Assembly: GCF_007991635.1 (NCBI RefSeq)
Contig: NZ_BJYS01000054.1
Coordinates: 1 to 38,888 of the forward strand
Source of the DNA: Adhaeribacter aerolatus
GTDB taxonomy: Bacteria > Bacteroidota > Bacteroidia > Cytophagales > Hymenobacteraceae
Direction: 5' to 3'
Length of the DNA: 38,888 bases
The notes beneath the pieces are model-generated. The model made no database searches and was not told the origin of the DNA. It saw nothing but the letters and a program-made list of their open reading frames with translations. Positions 9,219 to 23,258 of the stretch are shown one piece after another. The position numbers and the translations under genes were made by a program. The number at the start of each line of letters is the position of its first letter. The stretch's first letter is position 1.

Positions 9219-10337
9219 TTATTCGGTTAGGAGTTGGGAGTTGGGGTTTAAACCCGCAATAATTTCTACTTCGCTCAGGGTCTCCACGCCTTTGGTCACT
9301 TTTACTTTGCGGGCATCACCATCCTGGTTTACTGCCACCGAATCGCCGGGGAGCAATAAGGTGCGGGGAATTACCAGTGTTTTAGCTTTCTGATTGATAA
9401 TAATATTGGCTTCCAGGGCCAGGCCGGAGTAGTAACCGGGCAAGGTATCGGTCAGTTGGGCATCCACGCGCAACGATTGGTCGCGGGTATCCACAGTGGG
9501 GTAAATTTTGGTTACCTTGGCTTTAAATATTTGCTTGGGGTAGGCATCAATTTTAACCAATATTTCCTGGCCGGATTTTACCCGCTGAATATCCAGTTCA
9601 TCAACTTTAAGCCGCAAGTAAAACTGGTCTAAGCGGCCTACTACTGCAATGGCTTCGCCTCTTTTTACCAGTTCACCGGGCTCTTTCAGCATTTTGAGTA
9701 AAGTGCCTTTAATCTGGCTTTTTACCGTGTACCGGGCGCTTTCGTCGCGGGCCACACTAAGATTGCTCTGGGTGTTTTGCAGTTCCAGGTATAATTGATT
9801 TTTAAGTTTGGCGTAGCGGCTCCGGTAGGCCTGGTATTCGCTTTGGCTGTTGTCGTAAGCGAGTTTGTAGCGCTCCAGTTCGGCTTTTGAAGTAGCTTTG
9901 TTTTGGTACAAATGCTGGTAGCGGGCAAAGTTGGTAGAGTCGTAGGCTAACTTGGTTCTGGCTGCCTGCAAAGCCGATAAAGCTTCTTTTAAAACCGGGC
10001 TGTTGTTGCGGTAATTAGCGGCTGCCATATTGTAGGCTTCGCGGGCGAACTGATAGCGGGCATTTTGCTGCTGGCTTTCCAAAACAAAAAGTGCCTTATT
10101 CTGCGACACGGGTTCGCCTTCCTGCACCAGTTTTTCTACCAGCACGCCTTCGGTTTGCGCAAATACCTGGTATTCCTGGTCCGATACCACAAACCCCGAC
10201 GCATACACCGCTTCGGTTAAAGGCTTTACGGCCGGCGTAATGGTCGTAAGATTTCGGTTGCAGGCGTAAAAGGTGAATGAGCCGAAAGCCGCAAAAAGAA
10301 TTAGTATTATTATAATGGGTTTGGTATTAGTTTTCAT
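9219..10337 (-). CDS. HlyD/MacA-type periplasmic adaptor (efflux subunit)
   Basis: 372-residue membrane-fusion protein that should bridge the FtsX permease and the TolC channel. It has one N-terminal hydrophobic segment (about 8-25) followed by Cys26 in FTFYACNRN. That is a poor lipobox, so anchoring by the helix is as likely as lipidation. Next comes a biotinyl-lipoyl-like half motif (EGVLVEKLVQEGEPVSQ), and a long alpha-helical hairpin, about residues 95-195, rich in Ala, Gln and Tyr. The second lipoyl half is IKGTLLKMLKEPGELVKRGE, followed by the beta-barrel and membrane-proximal domains. Its start overlaps the TolC gene by 4 nt. Complete and of normal length. Confidence 0.93.
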   Translation of the reverse strand: MKTNTKPIIIILILFAAFGSFTFYACNRNLTTITPAVKPLTEAVYASGFVVSDQEYQVFAQTEGVLVEKLVQEGEPVSQNKALFVLESQQQNARYQFAREAYNMAAANYRNNSPVLKEALSALQAARTKLAYDSTNFARYQHLYQNKATSKAELERYKLAYDNSQSEYQAYRSRYAKLKNQLYLELQNTQSNLSVARDESARYTVKSQIKGTLLKMLKEPGELVKRGEAIAVVGRLDQFYLRLKVDELDIQRVKSGQEILVKIDAYPKQIFKAKVTKIYPTVDTRDQSLRVDAQLTDTLPGYYSGLALEANIIINQKAKTLVIPRTLLLPGDSVAVNQDGDARKVKVTKGVETLSEVEIIAGLNPNSQLLTE

Positions 10338-16076: not shown

Positions 16077-16517
16077 ATGCTTTCTAAAAAAGCAAAATAC
16101 GCACTTAAAGCACTTCTGTATCTAACTAAAAATGCAGATAGAGGCCTGGTCCTGATATCTGAAATTGCTAATTCTGAAAGAATACCCCGTAAATTTTTAG
16201 AAGCTATTCTGGTCGACCTGAAAACCCAGGGTGTGTTGCAAAGCACCCGGGGCAAAAACGGCGGCTATTCGCTGGCCAAAGACCCTTCGCAGGTTTCGGT
16301 GGGTAATATTGTGCGGATGATTGACGGACCGCTGGCTCCCATTCAATGCGTAAGTCACCTGTATTACCGCAAATGCGACGAGTGCCTGAACGAAGAAACC
16401 TGCGAAATCCGGCTGGTGATGAAGAAAGTGCGCGATGCCACGGCGGCCATTCTCGATACAACCTACCTTTCGGATTTACAGAAAATAAATGTACTGGTAA
16501 ACGAAGAGCCCCTTTAG
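16077..16517 (+). CDS. Rrf2-family transcriptional regulator with four-cysteine cluster
   Basis: 146-residue winged-helix regulator. The N-terminal DNA-binding part (KKAKYALKALLYL, ISEIANSERIPRKFLEAIL, and the wing STRGKNGGYSLA) is clear Rrf2. The C-terminal part has Cys91, Cys100, Cys103 and Cys109 (C-X8-C-X2-C-X5-C), which could hold an Fe-S cluster or sense thiols. IscR uses three Cys and a His, whereas the cysteine regulator CymR lacks such a cluster. Regulators with this Cys arrangement occur in sulfur-assimilation neighbourhoods of Bacteroidota as far as I recall. It lies 13 nt after dnaA and may share its transcript. Its likely target is the dyad at 16851-16869, about 330 nt downstream, in front of the polycysteine ORF and TonB receptor; that link is inference. 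Confidence 0.93.
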   Translation: MLSKKAKYALKALLYLTKNADRGLVLISEIANSERIPRKFLEAILVDLKTQGVLQSTRGKNGGYSLAKDPSQVSVGNIVRMIDGPLAPIQCVSHLYYRKCDECLNEETCEIRLVMKKVRDATAAILDTTYLSDLQKINVLVNEEPL

Positions 16518-16819
16518 GTATCTCTGCCAAGGTTTCCAGATTAAGAATGGCAAGCGGCCTTTTTTCGTATTAGCTATCCGTCTGCCTGCTGTCAGATTTC
16601 TTTCCTGAAAATTACTTCCCGAAAAGCGCTGCTTAGGAAATAATCTTCTCTAAACCTTTTTCTAATATTCTTTTATCTGGAGCTTACTTTTCCGCCGGAA
16701 AGCAAGCGATTAAATTTCGGCAGAATGATTGGTTCGGTGTTTTGAACCCTTAACCAGGCCTGGTAATTGTGGCCGGTTATCAGCAGAAAAATAAAAATCA
16801 AAAATATTATCGCCTAAAA
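16518..16819. other. Intergenic region upstream of polycysteine ORF
   Basis: No gene is seen. A weak hairpin TGCCA/TGGCA followed by AGCGGCC and six T (within 16527-16566) may terminate the dnaA-rrf2 transcript. A perfect 12-bp palindrome ACCAGGCCTGGT lies at 16753-16764. The last part is AT-rich and leads into the promoter described at 16820-16851. Confidence 0.4.
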
Positions 16820-16851
16820 TTTGGTCCCTTCGTAAAAACCAATTTTATTTG
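16820..16851 (+). promoter_or_regulatory. Predicted Bacteroidetes-type promoter of the polycysteine ORF/TonB receptor unit
   Basis: A -33-like TTTG (16820-16823) and a -7-like TTTATTTG (16844-16851; seven of eight positions of TAnnTTTG) are separated by 20 nt, close to the spacing known for Bacteroidetes promoters. Transcription would start near 16857-16860, about 45 nt before the short ORF. A sigma70-like TATAAT at 16856-16861 is also present but has no good -35. Confidence 0.5.
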
Positions 16852-16869
16852 TCTATATAATCTATAGAC
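16851..16869. promoter_or_regulatory. Perfect dyad GTCTATA-N5-TATAGAC, candidate Rrf2 operator
   Basis: The arms GTCTATA (16851-16857) and TATAGAC (16863-16869) are exact reverse complements with TAATC between. The site overlaps the 3' end of the predicted -7 element and the expected transcription start, the position of a repressor operator. An Rrf2-family gene lies about 330 nt upstream on the same strand, and Rrf2 proteins bind dyads of about this size as dimers. The assignment to that regulator is inference. Confidence 0.6.
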
Positions 16870-16904
16870 TTTATGTAAATAGATGTTAAAACCACTATAA
16901 CCTC

Positions 16905-16988
16905 ATGAAAACAATTGTTTTAAACACCAGACCAATTTACCCCTCTGCCAGCACCAGACTGCCAAGCTGTTGTTGCTGCTGTGCTTAA
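16905..16988 (+). CDS. 27-residue polycysteine leader peptide (MKTIVLNTRP...RLPSCCCCCA)
   Basis: A short ORF too small for normal gene calling: ATG at 16905, TAA at 16986-16988. It encodes 27 residues with five consecutive cysteines at positions 22-26 (codons TGT TGT TGC TGC TGT), one Ala and stop. It is 42 nt before the TonB receptor start and downstream of a promoter/dyad. Five tandem codons of one amino acid next to a stop is the hallmark of an attenuator leader peptide. Polycysteine short ORFs are known cysteine-responsive attenuators in mycobacteria. Two competing pairings are visible: AGCAC-c-AG (16950-16957) with CTGTGCT (16979-16985), and CTGCT (16976-16980) with AGCAG (16997-17001). 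Ribosome stalling on Cys codons would block both pairings by covering the shared strand. No classical terminator follows, so control could act on receptor translation. Cysteine sensing is inferred. Confidence 0.75.
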   Translation: MKTIVLNTRPIYPSASTRLPSCCCCCA

Positions 16989-17030
16989 AAGTATTTAGCA
17001 GGTAAGTTTTTGTTTAGATCAATTTAAATC

Positions 17031-19934
17031 ATGAAAAAAATTTTATTATTCTTTTATATAGGTTTGTTTTTTCCCCTGTTCGCGGTATTCGCACAGGAAA
17101 CCAATATTGTACAAATAACCGGTCAGGTAACCGACCAGCAATCGAAAGCGCCGCTGCCGGGCGTGAGTGTGTATGTAAAAGGCGGTGTAACCGGTACCAT
17201 CACCAATAACAACGGCGAGTTTTTGTTTAAGACGCGCTTAAGTTTTCCATTTACCTTAGTGTTTTCGTCAGTTGGTTTCGAGACCCAGGAATTTCAGGTT
17301 ACCGGGGTAGGCGCTAAGGTAAATATTGCCCTGAATACCCAAACTTATTTGGGCAAAGAGGTGGTGGTTACGGCTTCGCGGGTAGAAGAAAGTATACTAA
17401 AGTCGCCGGTAGCTATTGAGAAACTGGATATCCGGGCCATCCGGGAAACCGCAGCGCCCAGCTTTTACGATGCTTTGGAAAACGTGAAAGGTGTGCAGAT
17501 GACTACCTCCAGCCTGACGTTTAAAGTGCCCAACACCCGTGGTTTTAATATTCCGAACAACTTCCGGTTTATGCAACTGGTAGATGGCATTGACATGCAG
17601 GCGGCCACCCTGGGTGTACCTTTGGGTAATGCCATTGGCCCTACCGAGCTGGATATTGCCAGCGTGGAAATTACGCCGGGCGCTGCTTCGGCGTTGTACG
17701 GCATGAACGCCATTAACGGCATGGCCAATCTGATTACCAAAAGCCCGTTCCTGCACCAGGGTTTGAGTGTTTACCAGAAAACCGGCATAAACCACGTAGA
17801 TGGCATTGACTATAACCCCAGTGTTTTAACCGAAACTGCTATCCGCTACGCCAAAGCTTTTAACGACAAATGGGCTTTTAAAGTAAACGGTAGCTACATG
17901 CGTGGTACGGATTGGCGCGGCAGTTCTACCAACGACCAGAACCCGAATAACCTGAGTACTGCAAACCCATTGTACCCGGAGCTGGCGGGCGCGAATAACC
18001 CCGCTTACGATGCTTGGAACAAGTACGGCGACGATGCCGGTGCCAATCCTGTAACTATTAGTGGTATTACCTACAACGGCCGACCTAACCAGACCTTCTT
18101 ATTAAGAAGAACCGGTTACTGGGAAAAAGATGTGGTAAGCCCTTATGTAGATAACCTGAAGTTTGATGCCGCGTTGCACTACCGGATAGGCGAAAAAGCC
18201 GAGCTGTCGTACGGCTACCGGGTAGGAAAAATGGATGGCGTTTTCCAGCGGGGTAACAAAGTGCAACTAGATAATGTGGTGGTACAGAACCATCATGTTG
18301 AGTTGAAGGGCGCGAATTATTTTATCCGCTCGTATGCGTCCATCGAAAATACCGGTGATTCTTACAACCTGAAACCGATGGTAGATAACCTGGAAATTAC
18401 CAGCGGCGGTTCTAATGCCGAGTGGGGTACCAAATTTAAAGGTGCGTTACAAACCGAGTTAAACAATGGTACCGACCTGGCTACCGCCATGCAACTGGCC
18501 CGCCAGGTAGCCGACCAAAACCGGGTACAGCCCGGTACGCCGGAATTCGACAACCTGAAAAACACCATTCGGGGCATTAACAACTGGGACCATGCCAAGG
18601 TTGTAGCCGGTGCGCCGGCCACCGGGGGCGCCTGGCTGAAGCAGGAAAGCCGCATGTACCATACCGAAGCCCAGTGGGATTTTACCGACCAGATTAAATT
18701 TGCCAATTTTCTAGTAGGCGTAGATGCCCGGGTATACGAAGTAATTCCGGATGGTAATAATTTCGTGGATTTTACGCGCCCTATTTCCGAAAGAACCCAA
18801 CCCGGCGGCAATAATGTGTACTACAAAAAATTTGGCGGCTTTACCCAAGTTACCAAAACTTTCTTCGAGGAGAAACTTAAATTATTTGGCTCCCTACGCT
18901 TAGATTACAACCCTGAGTTTGCGCCCAAGCCTAACCCACGTATTGCCGCGGTTTATACCGTAGCACAAAACCATAATTTCCGGGCCTCTTTCCAGAACGG
19001 CTTTCGTTTCCCGGCGTTGTTCGAAGCCGTATCTTACGTGAACAACGGCAACGTACGGCGGGTTGGGGGCTTAAGCTATATTAACGAAGGTTTAAATTAC
19101 CTCGATAACTCTTATACTCAAGCTTCTATCAATACCTTTAATGCCGCTGTAAATAAAGATGTAGCCAACGGTACCGCTGCCAACGCGACCGAAGCAGCGC
19201 TGAGAAACCGGGCCTTATTAGAAGCTACTAATCTTTCGGCTACCCGGCCCGAACGCATCAATTCTTTTGAAATTGGTTACAAAGGTACCTGGCTCGATAA
19301 TAAATTAATATTAGATATTGATGCTTATGCGAATCAGTACGATGGTTTTCTGGGCCAGGTAGAAGTAGCCGTACCTTACACCAAGGCCAACCCTACTTTG
19401 CAGGCCCAGGTGGATACCGATGAAGCCGTAATTGCCGCCTTGGCCGCCAACCGGTCGGCGCAGCAAACCCGCTACCGGGTGTACACCAATGCCAAAAACA
19501 AGTATAACAACTATGGTTCAGCCCTGGGTTTAACCTACAATTTTTACCGGAAATTTGCGGTAGCGGGTAATGTTAATTACAACAATATTTCGGAGAATAA
19601 GCAGGCCGATATATTTGTAACTGGCTTTAACACGCCCAAATGGACTACTAACCTTTCTATTGCCAACCGCGAAGTAGTGAAGAATGTAGGTTTTAACCTG
19701 GTTTGGCGGTGGCAGGATTCTTTCCTGTGGGAAAGCACATTAGCCAACGGTACTATTCCGGCTTATCACACGTTTGATGCCCAGGTAACCTACCGGGTGC
19801 CCGCACTCAAAGCATCGGTAAAAGTGGGCGGCACCAATATTTTCAACCAGCGTTATATTCAGTATGCCGCCGGGCCAACCATTGGTGGGTTGTACTACGT
19901 AGCCATTACCGTAGATGGACTTTTGAAAAAATAA
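17031..19934 (+). CDS. TonB-dependent outer membrane receptor
   Basis: 967-residue outer-membrane active transporter. A signal peptide ends near FAVFAQ (residue 22). Residues about 27-108 form a carboxypeptidase-regulatory-like beta-sandwich (ITGQVTDQQSKAPLPGVSVYVKG). Then comes a TonB-box-like EVVVTASRVEES and the plug domain (about 118-240, with NTRGFN, VDGIDMQ, and SVEITPGAASALYGMNAINGMANLITK). The rest is a large beta-barrel. It is not followed by a SusD partner, so it probably imports a small ligand alone, as siderophore or cobalamin-type receptors do. The protein contains no cysteine and few methionines. It is preceded by a polycysteine leader ORF and dyad. A sulfur-containing ligand is a reasonable but unproven guess. 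Confidence 0.95.
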   Translation: MKKILLFFYIGLFFPLFAVFAQETNIVQITGQVTDQQSKAPLPGVSVYVKGGVTGTITNNNGEFLFKTRLSFPFTLVFSSVGFETQEFQVTGVGAKVNIALNTQTYLGKEVVVTASRVEESILKSPVAIEKLDIRAIRETAAPSFYDALENVKGVQMTTSSLTFKVPNTRGFNIPNNFRFMQLVDGIDMQAATLGVPLGNAIGPTELDIASVEITPGAASALYGMNAINGMANLITKSPFLHQGLSVYQKTGINHVDGIDYNPSVLTETAIRYAKAFNDKWAFKVNGSYMRGTDWRGSSTNDQNPNNLSTANPLYPELAGANNPAYDAWNKYGDDAGANPVTISGITYNGRPNQTFLLRRTGYWEKDVVSPYVDNLKFDAALHYRIGEKAELSYGYRVGKMDGVFQRGNKVQLDNVVVQNHHVELKGANYFIRSYASIENTGDSYNLKPMVDNLEITSGGSNAEWGTKFKGALQTELNNGTDLATAMQLARQVADQNRVQPGTPEFDNLKNTIRGINNWDHAKVVAGAPATGGAWLKQESRMYHTEAQWDFTDQIKFANFLVGVDARVYEVIPDGNNFVDFTRPISERTQPGGNNVYYKKFGGFTQVTKTFFEEKLKLFGSLRLDYNPEFAPKPNPRIAAVYTVAQNHNFRASFQNGFRFPALFEAVSYVNNGNVRRVGGLSYINEGLNYLDNSYTQASINTFNAAVNKDVANGTAANATEAALRNRALLEATNLSATRPERINSFEIGYKGTWLDNKLILDIDAYANQYDGFLGQVEVAVPYTKANPTLQAQVDTDEAVIAALAANRSAQQTRYRVYTNAKNKYNNYGSALGLTYNFYRKFAVAGNVNYNNISENKQADIFVTGFNTPKWTTNLSIANREVVKNVGFNLVWRWQDSFLWESTLANGTIPAYHTFDAQVTYRVPALKASVKVGGTNIFNQRYIQYAAGPTIGGLYYVAITVDGLLKK

Positions 19935-20630: not shown

Positions 20631-20700
20631 GCCGTAGTGGCTGAGCGGAGAGGCGTAGGTCCGCAAGACCTTCTACAGCGGTTCGAATCCGCTCGCGGCG
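20631..20700 (+). tRNA. Degenerate tRNA-Cys-like sequence (anticodon GCA)
   Basis: A 70-nt cloverleaf-like element. The T-arm is perfect: AGCGG (20677-20681), loop TTCGAAT, CCGCT (20689-20693). The D-arm is normal in form: GCT (20640-20642) with GGC (20652-20654), preceded by TG and containing GAGCGG. The anticodon arm is AGGT/ACCT with loop CCGCAAG, reading GCA (Cys) at 20663-20665. Oddities: position 33 is C instead of the near-universal U. C32 and G38 can pair, closing the loop to five bases, and the outer anticodon-stem pair is T-T. The acceptor helix is short: GCCG/CGGC plus T-G, then an A-C mismatch. The discriminator would be G rather than the U needed by cysteinyl-tRNA synthetase. CCA is not encoded. 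It resembles tRNA-Cys of the phylum but is probably a pseudo-tRNA or a repurposed tRNA-like RNA. Confidence 0.6.
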
Positions 20701-20776: not shown

Positions 20777-21412
20777 ATGACATTAAGATTAGGCGATATA
20801 GCACCGGATTTTACCGCTGAAACCTCAGAAGGCACTATCCACTTTCACAAATGGATGGGCGATAGCTGGGCCGTTTTCTTTTCGCATCCGCGCGATTATA
20901 CGCCGGTTTGTACCACCGAACTGGGAGCAGTAGCCCGTATCAAGGGGGAGTTTGATAAGCGCAATACCAAAGTAATAGCTATTAGTGTAGATCCGCTGGA
21001 CTCGCACGCCGGCTGGATTCAGGATATAAACGAGACGCAGGATACCACCGTAAACTTCCCGCTGATTGCCGACCCGGATAAAACCGTAGCCAACCTGTAC
21101 GACATGATTCACCCAAATGCCAGCGACACGGCCACCGTGCGTTCGGTATTTATTATCGGTCCGGACAAGAAAATTAAGCTGCAGTTAACTTATCCGGCAT
21201 CAACTGGCCGCAACTTTGCCGAAATACTGCGCGTGTTAGATTCGTTGCAGCTTACGGCTAACTATAGTGTGGCTACGCCGGCCGATTGGCAAAATGGCCA
21301 GGATTGTGTAATTGTACCGGCCATAAAAGACGAAGAAATTCCGGCTAAATTCCCGAAAGGCCATAAAGTAATTAAGCCTTACCTGCGTACTACGCCACAA
21401 CCTAATTTATAA
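20777..21412 (+). CDS. 1-Cys peroxiredoxin (Prx6 type)
   Basis: 211-residue thiol peroxidase that reduces hydrogen peroxide or organic peroxides. The active-site motif P38-X3-T42-X2-C45 (HPRDYTPVCTTE) is intact with peroxidatic Cys45. The length and C-terminal extension (DWQNGQDCVIVPAI, then FPKGHKVIKPYLR) place it in the Prx6/1-Cys group rather than 2-Cys AhpC or BCP. No signal peptide; cytoplasmic. The ATG at 20777 begins MTLRLGDIAPDF as usual. It is followed by a strong terminator at 21418-21469, so it is probably the last gene of its transcript, which may start upstream of the tRNA-like element or at its own promoter. Oxidative and sulfur stress are often co-managed, which fits the location. 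Confidence 0.95.
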   Translation: MTLRLGDIAPDFTAETSEGTIHFHKWMGDSWAVFFSHPRDYTPVCTTELGAVARIKGEFDKRNTKVIAISVDPLDSHAGWIQDINETQDTTVNFPLIADPDKTVANLYDMIHPNASDTATVRSVFIIGPDKKIKLQLTYPASTGRNFAEILRVLDSLQLTANYSVATPADWQNGQDCVIVPAIKDEEIPAKFPKGHKVIKPYLRTTPQPNL

Positions 21413-21469: not shown

Positions 21470-21493
21470 ATCTTTTATAAACCTAGTTTGTCT

Positions 21494-22270
21494 ATGAACA
21501 AAGTATACAAATTATTATTACTTTTGGATTCCGTTTTCCTGATGATACCGGTATGCTATGGGCAAACCAGCACCAAGCAGGTTACGGAGCGGGAGCAGGT
21601 TTGGCTGGGCTATTTTAACCAGACCCGTTTATCCAATAAATTTTCGCTTTGGCTGGATGTGCATGCCCGTCGGAACGATTTTTTAGACCGTTGGGCGCAA
21701 ACCATTGTGCGGCCAGGCCTGACGTACCATTTATCGGACCATGCCCGACTAACGGCGGGTTATGCTTATGTGTCTAGCTGGCCGGCCTCGGAAACCGATA
21801 AAACCGTCCGGCCCGAACATCGGCCCTGGCAGCAAATAAACTGGTCGGGACGAAGCCGGAAGCTGCAAACCAATCAGTGGGTGCGGTTGGAGGAGCGCTT
21901 TAACCGCAATATTGACGACGATGCGCTGCAGGATGGCTACCATTTTAATTTCCGGGTCCGCTACATGATTGCTTTAATGATGCCCTTAAAAGGTGATTTT
22001 ATAGAGAAAGGCGTACCTTTTTTAGTATTGAACGACGAAGTTCACGTGAATTTTGGTAAAGAGATATTGTATAATTACTTCGACCAGAACCGGTTTTTTG
22101 CGGGCGTTGGCTTTCCGTTCGCTAAAAACCTGAACGCTCAGTTGGGTTACATGCAGGTTTTTCAGCAATTACCCGCCGGCAACCGGTTTTATAAAACCCA
22201 TGCGTTGCGGCTTTTTATTTTTCATACCCTCGATTTCAGAAATAAAGAAACCCTGGAATCTTCCAAATAA
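21494..22270 (+). CDS. DUF2490 domain-containing outer-membrane-type protein
   Basis: 258 residues from the ATG at 21494; an in-frame TTG at 21488 is less likely. A signal peptide (MNKVYKLLLLLDSVFLMIP, cleavage around CYGQ) is followed by alternating amphipathic strands typical of DUF2490 beta-barrel-like proteins. Recognisable pieces are VWLGYFNQTRLSNKFSLWLD at the start of the domain, TIVRPGLTYHLSDHARLTAGYAY, and the C-terminal aromatic-rich strand ending in HTLDFRN. DUF2490 has no established function. The TSUP transporter gene starts 7 nt after its stop, so the two are co-transcribed, suggesting an outer-membrane partner for an inner-membrane anion exporter. No cysteine-linked leader precedes this operon. 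Confidence 0.88.
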   Translation: MNKVYKLLLLLDSVFLMIPVCYGQTSTKQVTEREQVWLGYFNQTRLSNKFSLWLDVHARRNDFLDRWAQTIVRPGLTYHLSDHARLTAGYAYVSSWPASETDKTVRPEHRPWQQINWSGRSRKLQTNQWVRLEERFNRNIDDDALQDGYHFNFRVRYMIALMMPLKGDFIEKGVPFLVLNDEVHVNFGKEILYNYFDQNRFFAGVGFPFAKNLNAQLGYMQVFQQLPAGNRFYKTHALRLFIFHTLDFRNKETLESSK

Positions 22271-22277
22271 TAACAAA

Positions 22278-23258
22278 ATGGCTAAAGAAAACGCAGGCTT
22301 AGTTGAAAGCCCGGATGGGCAGACCAAGGTAATGACGCTGGCCGGTGCGCCACCCGAAATAATAAAAACAGGGCTAAAAGAAGTAAATAAGCAAACCACA
22401 TCGTTGCTGGTTTACTTACCGGCTTTGGCAGTTATTATTATTTTATCTGTGCTGGTAATATTTAAGCCTTTTACCGGAAGCCCGGCCGGAGATTTTTTGG
22501 CCGAAAATATTACCACCGGTTTTCTTTGGTATGTGTTGGGCGGGTTCCTGGCCCAAATGGTAGACGGCGCTTTGGGCATGGCTTACGGCTTAACTTCGAC
22601 CACGTTTTTATTAACCATTGGCGTACCGCCCGCTGCTACCAGTGCCAGTGTACACATGTCCGAAATATTTACGAGTGGCGCCAGCGGTTTAATGCACCTG
22701 AAACTGAAAAACGTTAATAAAAGGCTGTTCCGGTTGTTGTTATTACCCGGCGTATGCGGTGCTATTATGGGCGCTTATATTTTATCTTCGCTGGAGGCGT
22801 ATAGTTATCTGATGAAACCGCTGGTTGCCGTTTATACCTTGGTTTTAGGCGTATTAATTATTATAAAAGCTTTTAAGCCGGCGCGTAAAAGGTTAAAAAG
22901 CAGCCGTATTGCGCCTTTGGCTTTGTTTGGCGGCTTCATGGACTCCGTAGGTGGCGGTGGCTGGGGGCCGGTTGTATCGTCCAGCCTGATTGCCGGCGGA
23001 CGCTCACCCCGGTTTACCATCGGCTCGGTTAACCTGGCCGAATTTTTTATTGCTTTTGCCAGCTCGTTAACTTTCTTTGCCATGATTGGCATTAGCTTCT
23101 GGCAAATTATTGCCGGCCTGGTGGTAGGTGGGGTTATTGCGGCGCCCATTGCAGCTAACCTTTCTAAACGATTACCGGTTAAATCGCTGATGATTCTGGT
23201 AGGCGTAATTGTAATATTAGTAAGCCTCCGGATTTTGTTTTTAGCTTTCTTGAAATAG
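22278..23258 (+). CDS. TSUP-family transporter (TauE/SafE sulfite exporter-like)
   Basis: 326-residue inner-membrane transporter of the 4-toluene sulfonate uptake/TauE-SafE family, which exports sulfite or organosulfur anions. Two related halves are visible: GGFLAQMVDGALGMAYG with PPAATSASVHMSE in the first, and GGFMDSVGGGGWGPVVSS with GSVNLAEFF in the second. These are the repeated Gly-rich and polar motifs of the family, within about eight hydrophobic segments. The start at 22278 (MAKENAGLVESPDG) is chosen because the longer frame would overlap the end of DUF2490 with non-family sequence. An N-terminal extension of about 35 polar residues precedes the first helix. Sulfite or sulfonate as substrate is inferred from the family and the sulfur-themed neighbourhood. 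Confidence 0.9.
   Translation: MAKENAGLVESPDGQTKVMTLAGAPPEIIKTGLKEVNKQTTSLLVYLPALAVIIILSVLVIFKPFTGSPAGDFLAENITTGFLWYVLGGFLAQMVDGALGMAYGLTSTTFLLTIGVPPAATSASVHMSEIFTSGASGLMHLKLKNVNKRLFRLLLLPGVCGAIMGAYILSSLEAYSYLMKPLVAVYTLVLGVLIIIKAFKPARKRLKSSRIAPLALFGGFMDSVGGGGWGPVVSSSLIAGGRSPRFTIGSVNLAEFFIAFASSLTFFAMIGISFWQIIAGLVVGGVIAAPIAANLSKRLPVKSLMILVGVIVILVSLRILFLAFLK

Follow-up and report, generated by a model that had tools for sequence, protein, structure and literature searches.

The window analyzed in the current study, by which we mean the whole stretch of 38,888 nucleotides from Adhaeribacter aerolatus, carries on its forward strand a gene for a TonB-dependent receptor of 967 amino acids (17031..19934), recognized by the Pfam domains CarbopepD_reg_2, Plug and TonB barrel and by the synteny of its orthologues; the only solved relatives found for this protein were colicin I receptors, which matched weakly over the plug region. 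Upstream of it on the same strand lies a leader ORF (16905..16988), whose 27 codons before the stop translate to MKTIVLNTRPIYPSASTRLPSCCCCCA and which is backed by its recurrence before orthologous receptors and by an alignment with three close sequences. Five consecutive cysteine codons (TGT TGT TGC TGC TGT; 16968..16982, forward strand), the putative site of ribosome stalling, are followed by GCT and TAA, and the stop, ending at 16988, is separated from the receptor ATG at 17031 by a 42-nt spacer (16989..17030, forward strand) that holds no terminator hairpin and has fractions of 0.07 for C and 0.17 for G. The translation and the coordinates bear out the preliminary description, in which a 27-codon ORF with five tandem Cys codons had been placed 42 nt before the receptor start.

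Further upstream, a gene on the forward strand (16077..16517) encodes a transcriptional regulator of the Rrf2 family, which scored 120.5 bits with the Rrf2 superfamily model (cut-off 73.3) and 125.9 bits with Pfam Rrf2, and did not reach the CymR equivalog (79.7 bits, cut-off 195). This protein is the candidate repressor for a perfect palindrome, GTCTATA-TAATC-TATAGAC (16851..16869, assigned to neither strand), which is a candidate operator at the promoter. On the 3' side of the receptor, all on the forward strand and named by Pfam, are genes for a peroxiredoxin (20777..21412; AhpC-TSA), found in a like position in the loci L070 and L071, and for two recurrent neighbors, a DUF2490 protein (21488..22270) and a TauE/SafE family permease (22200..23258). 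A weak tRNA match (window about 20631 to 20700, forward strand, the same as L021:5101-5170; 31.1 bits against a gathering score of 29) lies between a 183-aa ORF and the peroxiredoxin gene. Around the leader (16500..17200), the best Rfam match had an E-value of 2.3, far under the gathering score.

The occurrence of the leader was surveyed in a named set comprising the best 80 of 449 genome records matching the receptor, from which the 80th locus (L134) was excluded, its contig beginning 15 nt 5' of the receptor, and in a further set in which 118 relatives matched and 30 loci were fetched, several of them from the same genomes as the named set. A leader was defined as an ATG-started ORF of 6 to 70 amino acids with its stop 15 to 150 nt upstream and CC within its last six residues, and the control genes were the others in the same loci that have 150 nt or more of free sequence on their 5' side. 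Under this fixed rule, Cys leaders preceded 30 of the 79 orthologous receptors versus one of 263 control genes (best 80 of 449; Fisher p = 1.4e-20), and the sole control match, in L089, is the gene immediately 5' of the receptor and probably shares its operon. With the rule relaxed, the counts were 30/78 receptors versus 6/468 other genes, and no Cys leader was found upstream of 20 hand-picked receptor paralogues (41-47% identical). These counts support the earlier assertion that the Cys run goes beyond chance. The 79 receptors include that of L142, where receptor and leader are found in a MAG titled Williamsia (Actinomycetota); since this receptor groups with Chitinophagaceae in the tree, the title is probably wrong.

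Leader-bearing receptors belong to Hymenobacteraceae, Sphingobacteriaceae and Chitinophagaceae, and the residues before the stop codon are CCCR or CCCCR in Rufibacter and Sabulibacter (longer in L077), CCCCYFA or CCSCCLAL in Adhaeribacter, CCC or CC among others in Pedobacter and Mucilaginibacter, CCCCR in Hufsiella, and CCC in Flavihumibacter petaseus. Between genera, the Cys run is kept with little other peptide sequence, the rest being alike only in near relatives, and both the number and the order of cysteines vary. Eight Rufibacter-type sequences switch between TGT and TGC in their terminal Cys codons yet keep encoding cysteine, save for one serine and one gap, and the alignment with three close sequences contains two single-codon, frame-keeping indels within the ORF. 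Within the best 80 of 449 records, the closest named relative found was Adhaeribacter rhizoryzae, whose receptor is 95% identical. Distribution of the leader is nevertheless patchy: a tree of 87 receptors has a leader in 37, a weaker one recognized by eye in 6 and none in 44, and the leader label needs 21 changes on this tree, of which well-supported branches impose 15. Even among the seven congeners of the window, the leader is present in L022, L023 and L049, absent in L024 and L027, and replaced in L025 and L026 by a Cys cluster further upstream. Similar peptides of the form MxxNLLLLFNGxGxxGDSLC, with few cysteines, are present 5' of the receptor in L087, L094 and L096, and their last Cys is some 56-59 nt away from the receptor's start codon. 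The stricter pattern TGY5-GCN-TRA, searched in 148 relatives, matched in 6 genomes; the six sites besides that of the window, none of them before a receptor, were set aside on reading as chance.

Genes adjoining the receptor in the 80 loci were clustered, and the clusters were named by reading their sequences, with Pfam or NCBIfam backing for the genes of the window and of its own genome. By a hand count of the maps (best 80 of 449), sulfate-assimilation genes adjoin the receptor in 33 of 80 loci, counting those with at least one of CysH, CysD, CysN, CobA, CysJ and CysI near it. The clusters comprise CysI-like proteins (28 loci), CobA (25), CysJ (23), CysN (14), CysD (9) and CysH (7) and, with the window counted, DUF2490 (19) and TauE/CysG (52), the latter a cluster in which single linkage merged TauE with siroheme-synthase-like proteins. 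No sulfate-assimilation gene was found near the receptor in the loci of Adhaeribacter and Rufibacter, and that of the window itself has TauE and Rrf2. Judging by the synteny in the 33 loci, the receptor appears to belong with the supply of cysteine or sulfur.

Within the window's genome, four tandem TGY codons gave 86 matches versus 23 for the reversed control pattern. Reading all 86 yielded 15 ORFs that start with ATG, span no more than 60 codons and contain a run of four cysteines, leaving out those without an ATG before the run or with more than 60 codons from the first ATG; seven of the 15 are intergenic, and six of these precede sulfur or redox-partner genes. Besides the window receptor, their targets are rhodanese-cysH (L235), sulfite reductase (L238), a Cys/Met PLP enzyme with an alpha/beta-hydrolase-fold gene behind it (L239), a ferredoxin reductase-like gene that lies 234 nt 3' of the ORF and is accompanied by a ferredoxin, with metH and metF identified by eye 5' of that ORF (L234), and a SusC-like receptor 0.97 kb 3' of the ORF, with SusD identified by eye and a sulfatase further on (L237). 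The seventh, L208, precedes no gene, and CCCC ORFs in L007, L012, L014, L018, L020, L199, L205 and L222 were rejected for more-than-half overlap with long open frames. The L237 leader (near 9790-9880, minus strand) is part of a promoter/operator-leader block copy, about 71% identical over some 310 nt to that of the congener L023, which stands before the SusC-like receptor and sulfatase as if moved to another sulfur-source locus. The search proposed in the preliminary description, for Cys runs before receptor and sulfur genes in other Bacteroidota, found them at both, and the suggested tie of the leader to sulfur supply is strengthened by the synteny in 33/80 loci, the leaders in three families and the sister leaders on sulfur genes.

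The leaders of sulfite reductase and rhodanese-cysH in this genome have, by their sequences, a textbook attenuator anatomy, with terminator and antiterminator in the expected order. The rhodanese-cysH leader, which contains TCCCCMAVPC, is followed by a hairpin of -18.9 kcal/mol and a T run, and a leader stretch 9 nt past the Cys codons could base-pair with the terminator's 5' arm (z -4.1). At sulfite reductase, two tandem leader-terminator units occur in the window's genome and in 6 of its 7 congeners. In these sister units, a ribosome stalled on the Cys codons would leave the antiterminator arm free and allow readthrough, whereas an unstalled ribosome would cover the arm and let the terminator form. 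Across 20 units from 12 loci, which were picked for having a terminator and come from near relatives that are not independent, a possible antiterminator arm begins 0-14 nt past the Cys run, and the duplex compared with shuffles reached z of -2.9 or lower in 15, and was unconvincing in the second units of L243-L246 and the first of L247 (z -1.5 to -0.1). A terminator was found in 11 of the 19 sulfite reductase loci scanned over 150 nt (30 fetched), versus 8% for shuffles. Among nine further leaders, the shuffles were beaten by L165 (-13.5), by L177 (-10.3, at a distance) and narrowly by L234 (-12.3), and by no other. Tandem Cys-leader/terminator units were observed in L240, L241, L243-L247 and L257, about 390 to 30 nt 5' of the sulfite reductase start, and in five of the tandem loci one of the two units has no convincing antiterminator. 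Eight and ten consecutive Cys codons stand before a cysH-type gene and sulfite reductase in L165 and L250, respectively, both from the genome G018; a -13.5 kcal/mol hairpin with TTTT lies directly past the run in L165, and the hairpin of L250 is not beyond its shuffles.

Additionally, an Rfam scan of 28 different loci, all at sulfur or receptor genes, identified 14 SAM-I aptamers, each at a place of its own, in 10 genomes (seven of group g3, two of g5 and that of the window), located at L181:677-909 and in L165, L169, L155, L154, L150, L156, L248-L252, L255 and L256. A leader with a Cys run starts 6-10 nt past the aptamer in 14/14 cases, a proportion that says nothing of SAM-I aptamers generally, because sulfur genes were the criterion by which the loci were selected; the start is ATG in 12 and GTG in two, both of the latter in g5 and 9-10 nt past the aptamer. 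Their targets are cysH-type genes and sulfite reductase, with the Cys/Met PLP enzyme as the target in the genome of the window. When seven SAM-I loci with a far-upstream leader were scanned from the Cys run to the gene, only in L248 did a hairpin beat all six shuffles, and it lies far from the Cys run. We lean toward the view that a Cys-codon leader system in Bacteroidota spans outer-membrane uptake to assimilation in three designs, namely the terminator-less leader of the receptor, attenuators with single or tandem terminators for sulfite reductase and rhodanese-cysH, and a SAM-I/poly-Cys composite in which SAM would gate translation of the sensor and both end products would be read in series.

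Taken together, the recurrence before the receptor, the sulfur synteny and the sister leaders of the same genome make sensing through Cys codons well supported, and it is likely that the 27-codon leader is translated, that its five Cys codons gauge the level of charged tRNA-Cys and that the receptor operon is raised when cysteine is short. We infer that, under cysteine shortage, a ribosome would stall on the Cys codons, some 50-60 nt short of the receptor ATG, and the receptor operon would be expressed more strongly, whereas with plentiful cysteine the ribosome would reach the stop codon and expression would stay low. The receptor leader would then have sister leaders on several sulfur genes of its own genome, and it probably belongs to a broader cysteine-leader system. 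Hairpins of terminator type, at -10 kcal/mol or stronger, were found in 0 of 37 receptor leaders, which agrees with the earlier remark that no classical terminator follows the ORF; the window leader would sense like the ribosome-mediated attenuation family and is not filed as a classical member.

How stalling would be passed on to the receptor is a matter of two tentative proposals. In the first, translational attenuation, a ribosome on the leader would, while stalled or while terminating, alter access to the receptor start or re-initiate there, with the same Cys sensing and without a premature end of transcription. This possibility is favored by the lack of a terminator in all 37 leaders and by several leaders in which the Cys run holds its distance to the receptor start and the stop codon does not. 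In 26 of 37 leaders, the end of the run lies 45-66 nt 5' of the receptor ATG, and among nine with at least four residues past the run its end is still at -45 to -66 in six (L077, L080, L087, L102, L135 and L147; not in L071, L126 and L148). Over all 37 leaders, however, the quartiles of the Cys run (-77 to -54) are no tighter than those of the stop (-62 to -45). Folding of 26 leaders also speaks against it, since the predicted accessibility of the start site was 0.557 in free RNA, 0.573 with a ribosome on the Cys run and 0.608 with one at the stop, and was equal with shuffled spacers (0.562, 0.593 and 0.615); this check lent no support to the idea that a stalled ribosome uncovers the start. 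The competing pairings put forward in the preliminary description are possible in the window sequence but are not conserved in the nearest relative, which has a 95% identical receptor and lacks the AGCAG arm past the stop.

The second proposal, held just as tentatively, is a Rho-type termination that a stalled ribosome would hinder. The excess of C over G in the 45 nt before the receptor averages 0.155 in leader-bearing loci versus 0.049 before other genes of the same loci (p 3e-7, higher in 28/32) and 0.083 in leaderless orthologues (p 6e-4). Simply counting the spacers in which C exceeds G gives no separation between leader-bearing (29/35) and leaderless receptors (36/45), and in the window itself G exceeds C. 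We place the Rho-type and the translational output at even odds, because the plain count and the spread of the run position weigh against the respective clues.

Other explanations of the Cys run itself fare much worse than a gauge of charged tRNA-Cys. Clusters of cysteine are able to bind metals, and the poly-Cys peptide might act as a nascent-chain sensor of metals or thiols for a metal-related TonB receptor. A copper-responsive nascent exported protein exerting translational control has been described (PMC9973294). We nonetheless regard metal sensing as very improbable, given the sulfate-assimilation neighbors in 33/80 loci, the like leaders before cysH, sulfite reductase and the Cys/Met PLP enzyme, some with classical terminators, the varying number and order of cysteines, and the lack of an export signal by eye. 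Even less credible is a precursor of a modified, methanobactin-like Cys-rich peptide imported by the adjacent receptor: methanobactin clusters likewise place a short Cys-rich ORF close to a TonB receptor, but Pfam searches of the receptor and five neighbors found no MNIO/DUF692 or other peptide-modifying enzyme, and conservation of the peptide between genera is limited to the Cys run. That the ORF arose by chance in a long 5' region can practically be dismissed: runs of four TGY codons are no rarity in the genome (86 versus 23 reversed), yet leaders precede 30/79 receptors against 1/263 controls and 6/7 of the intergenic ORFs precede sulfur or redox-partner genes.

Control by charged tRNA-Cys may be overlaid by another layer. 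The palindrome in its general form, GTCTA-N9-TAGAC (at most one mismatch, within 250 nt), occurs before 47 of 79 orthologous receptors versus 18 of 272 control genes (best 80 of 449) and before none of 20 receptor paralogues, and the sole exact match to TTGTCTAT-N6-TATAGAC in the genome is that of the window. In 13 of the 47, the palindrome reads TAnnTTTGTC and merges with the Bacteroidota -7 box. On these sequence grounds, the palindrome at 16851..16869 is probably an operator, and the Rrf2 protein may bind it as a repressor, forming a layer above the leader. The palindrome is commoner in leaderless receptors (33/45), in many of which it lies close to the start, than in leader-bearing ones (14/34), where it stands 5' of the leader in 12 of the 14 with both; the operator may accordingly be the older or more general layer, to which the leader was added in part of the clade. 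In the window, 35 nt separate the palindrome end (16869) from the leader ATG (16905), and with the palindrome probably overlapping the promoter this spacing hints at an untranslated 5' stretch, in which case the ORF would probably not be leaderless.

Ribosome-mediated transcription attenuators of the trp/his type have leaders with codons of the end product, as do the leaders described here, and the terminator and antiterminator order of sulfite reductase and rhodanese-cysH also resembles theirs, whereas the receptor leader has neither element. In attenuation of the tnaC type, a leader peptide without an intrinsic terminator is combined with Rho dependence; the receptor leaders are similar in having no intrinsic terminator and an average excess of C over G in the spacer, and differ in that sensing would be by a codon run, the window spacer is not C-rich and a role of Rho is conjectural here. 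Poly-Cys leaderless short ORFs of mycobacteria, reportedly described by Canestrari and colleagues in 2020, are said to exert control without a terminator. Attenuation of the tnaC type with Rho is also named in a study of actinobacterial cys operons, which reports Cys leader peptides without terminators and suggests Rho (Seliverstov et al., 2005; PMC1262725). The window ORF shares with these mycobacterial and actinobacterial systems a Cys run near the stop, sulfur genes downstream, the lack of a conserved terminator at the receptor leader and the suggestion of Rho; it differs in phylum and in having an outer-membrane TonB receptor as target, and, unlike the mycobacterial ORFs, it is probably not leaderless and has sisters with terminators in its own genome. 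The uORFC-8-2 motif upstream of cysS in Rhodobacterales is a two-Cys attenuator (PMC8632094), which the sulfite reductase and cysH leaders resemble in their tandem Cys codons and terminator-type attenuation; it differs in its target, a cysteinyl-tRNA synthetase of alphaproteobacteria, and the receptor leader differs from it in having no terminator.

Within Bacteroidota, leader-peptide attenuation at amino-acid operons of Flavobacterium psychrophilum (PMC9723704) and sORFs in 5' regions of Bacteroides thetaiotaomicron (PMC7366714) have been reported, in passages that do not mention cysteine. The literature searched, which included few subscription journals and no supplements, contained no report of Cys-codon attenuation in Bacteroidota. 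If our interpretation is correct, Cys-codon attenuation would extend from actinobacteria and the alphaproteobacterial cysS to Bacteroidota, and a simple rule suffices to find such Cys leaders. The composite of SAM aptamer and poly-Cys leader, if true, would be a two-input RNA device for SAM and cysteine. Overall, the charging of a single tRNA would control an outer-membrane nutrient receptor, and sulfur sources would become a testable class of substrates for this receptor clade.
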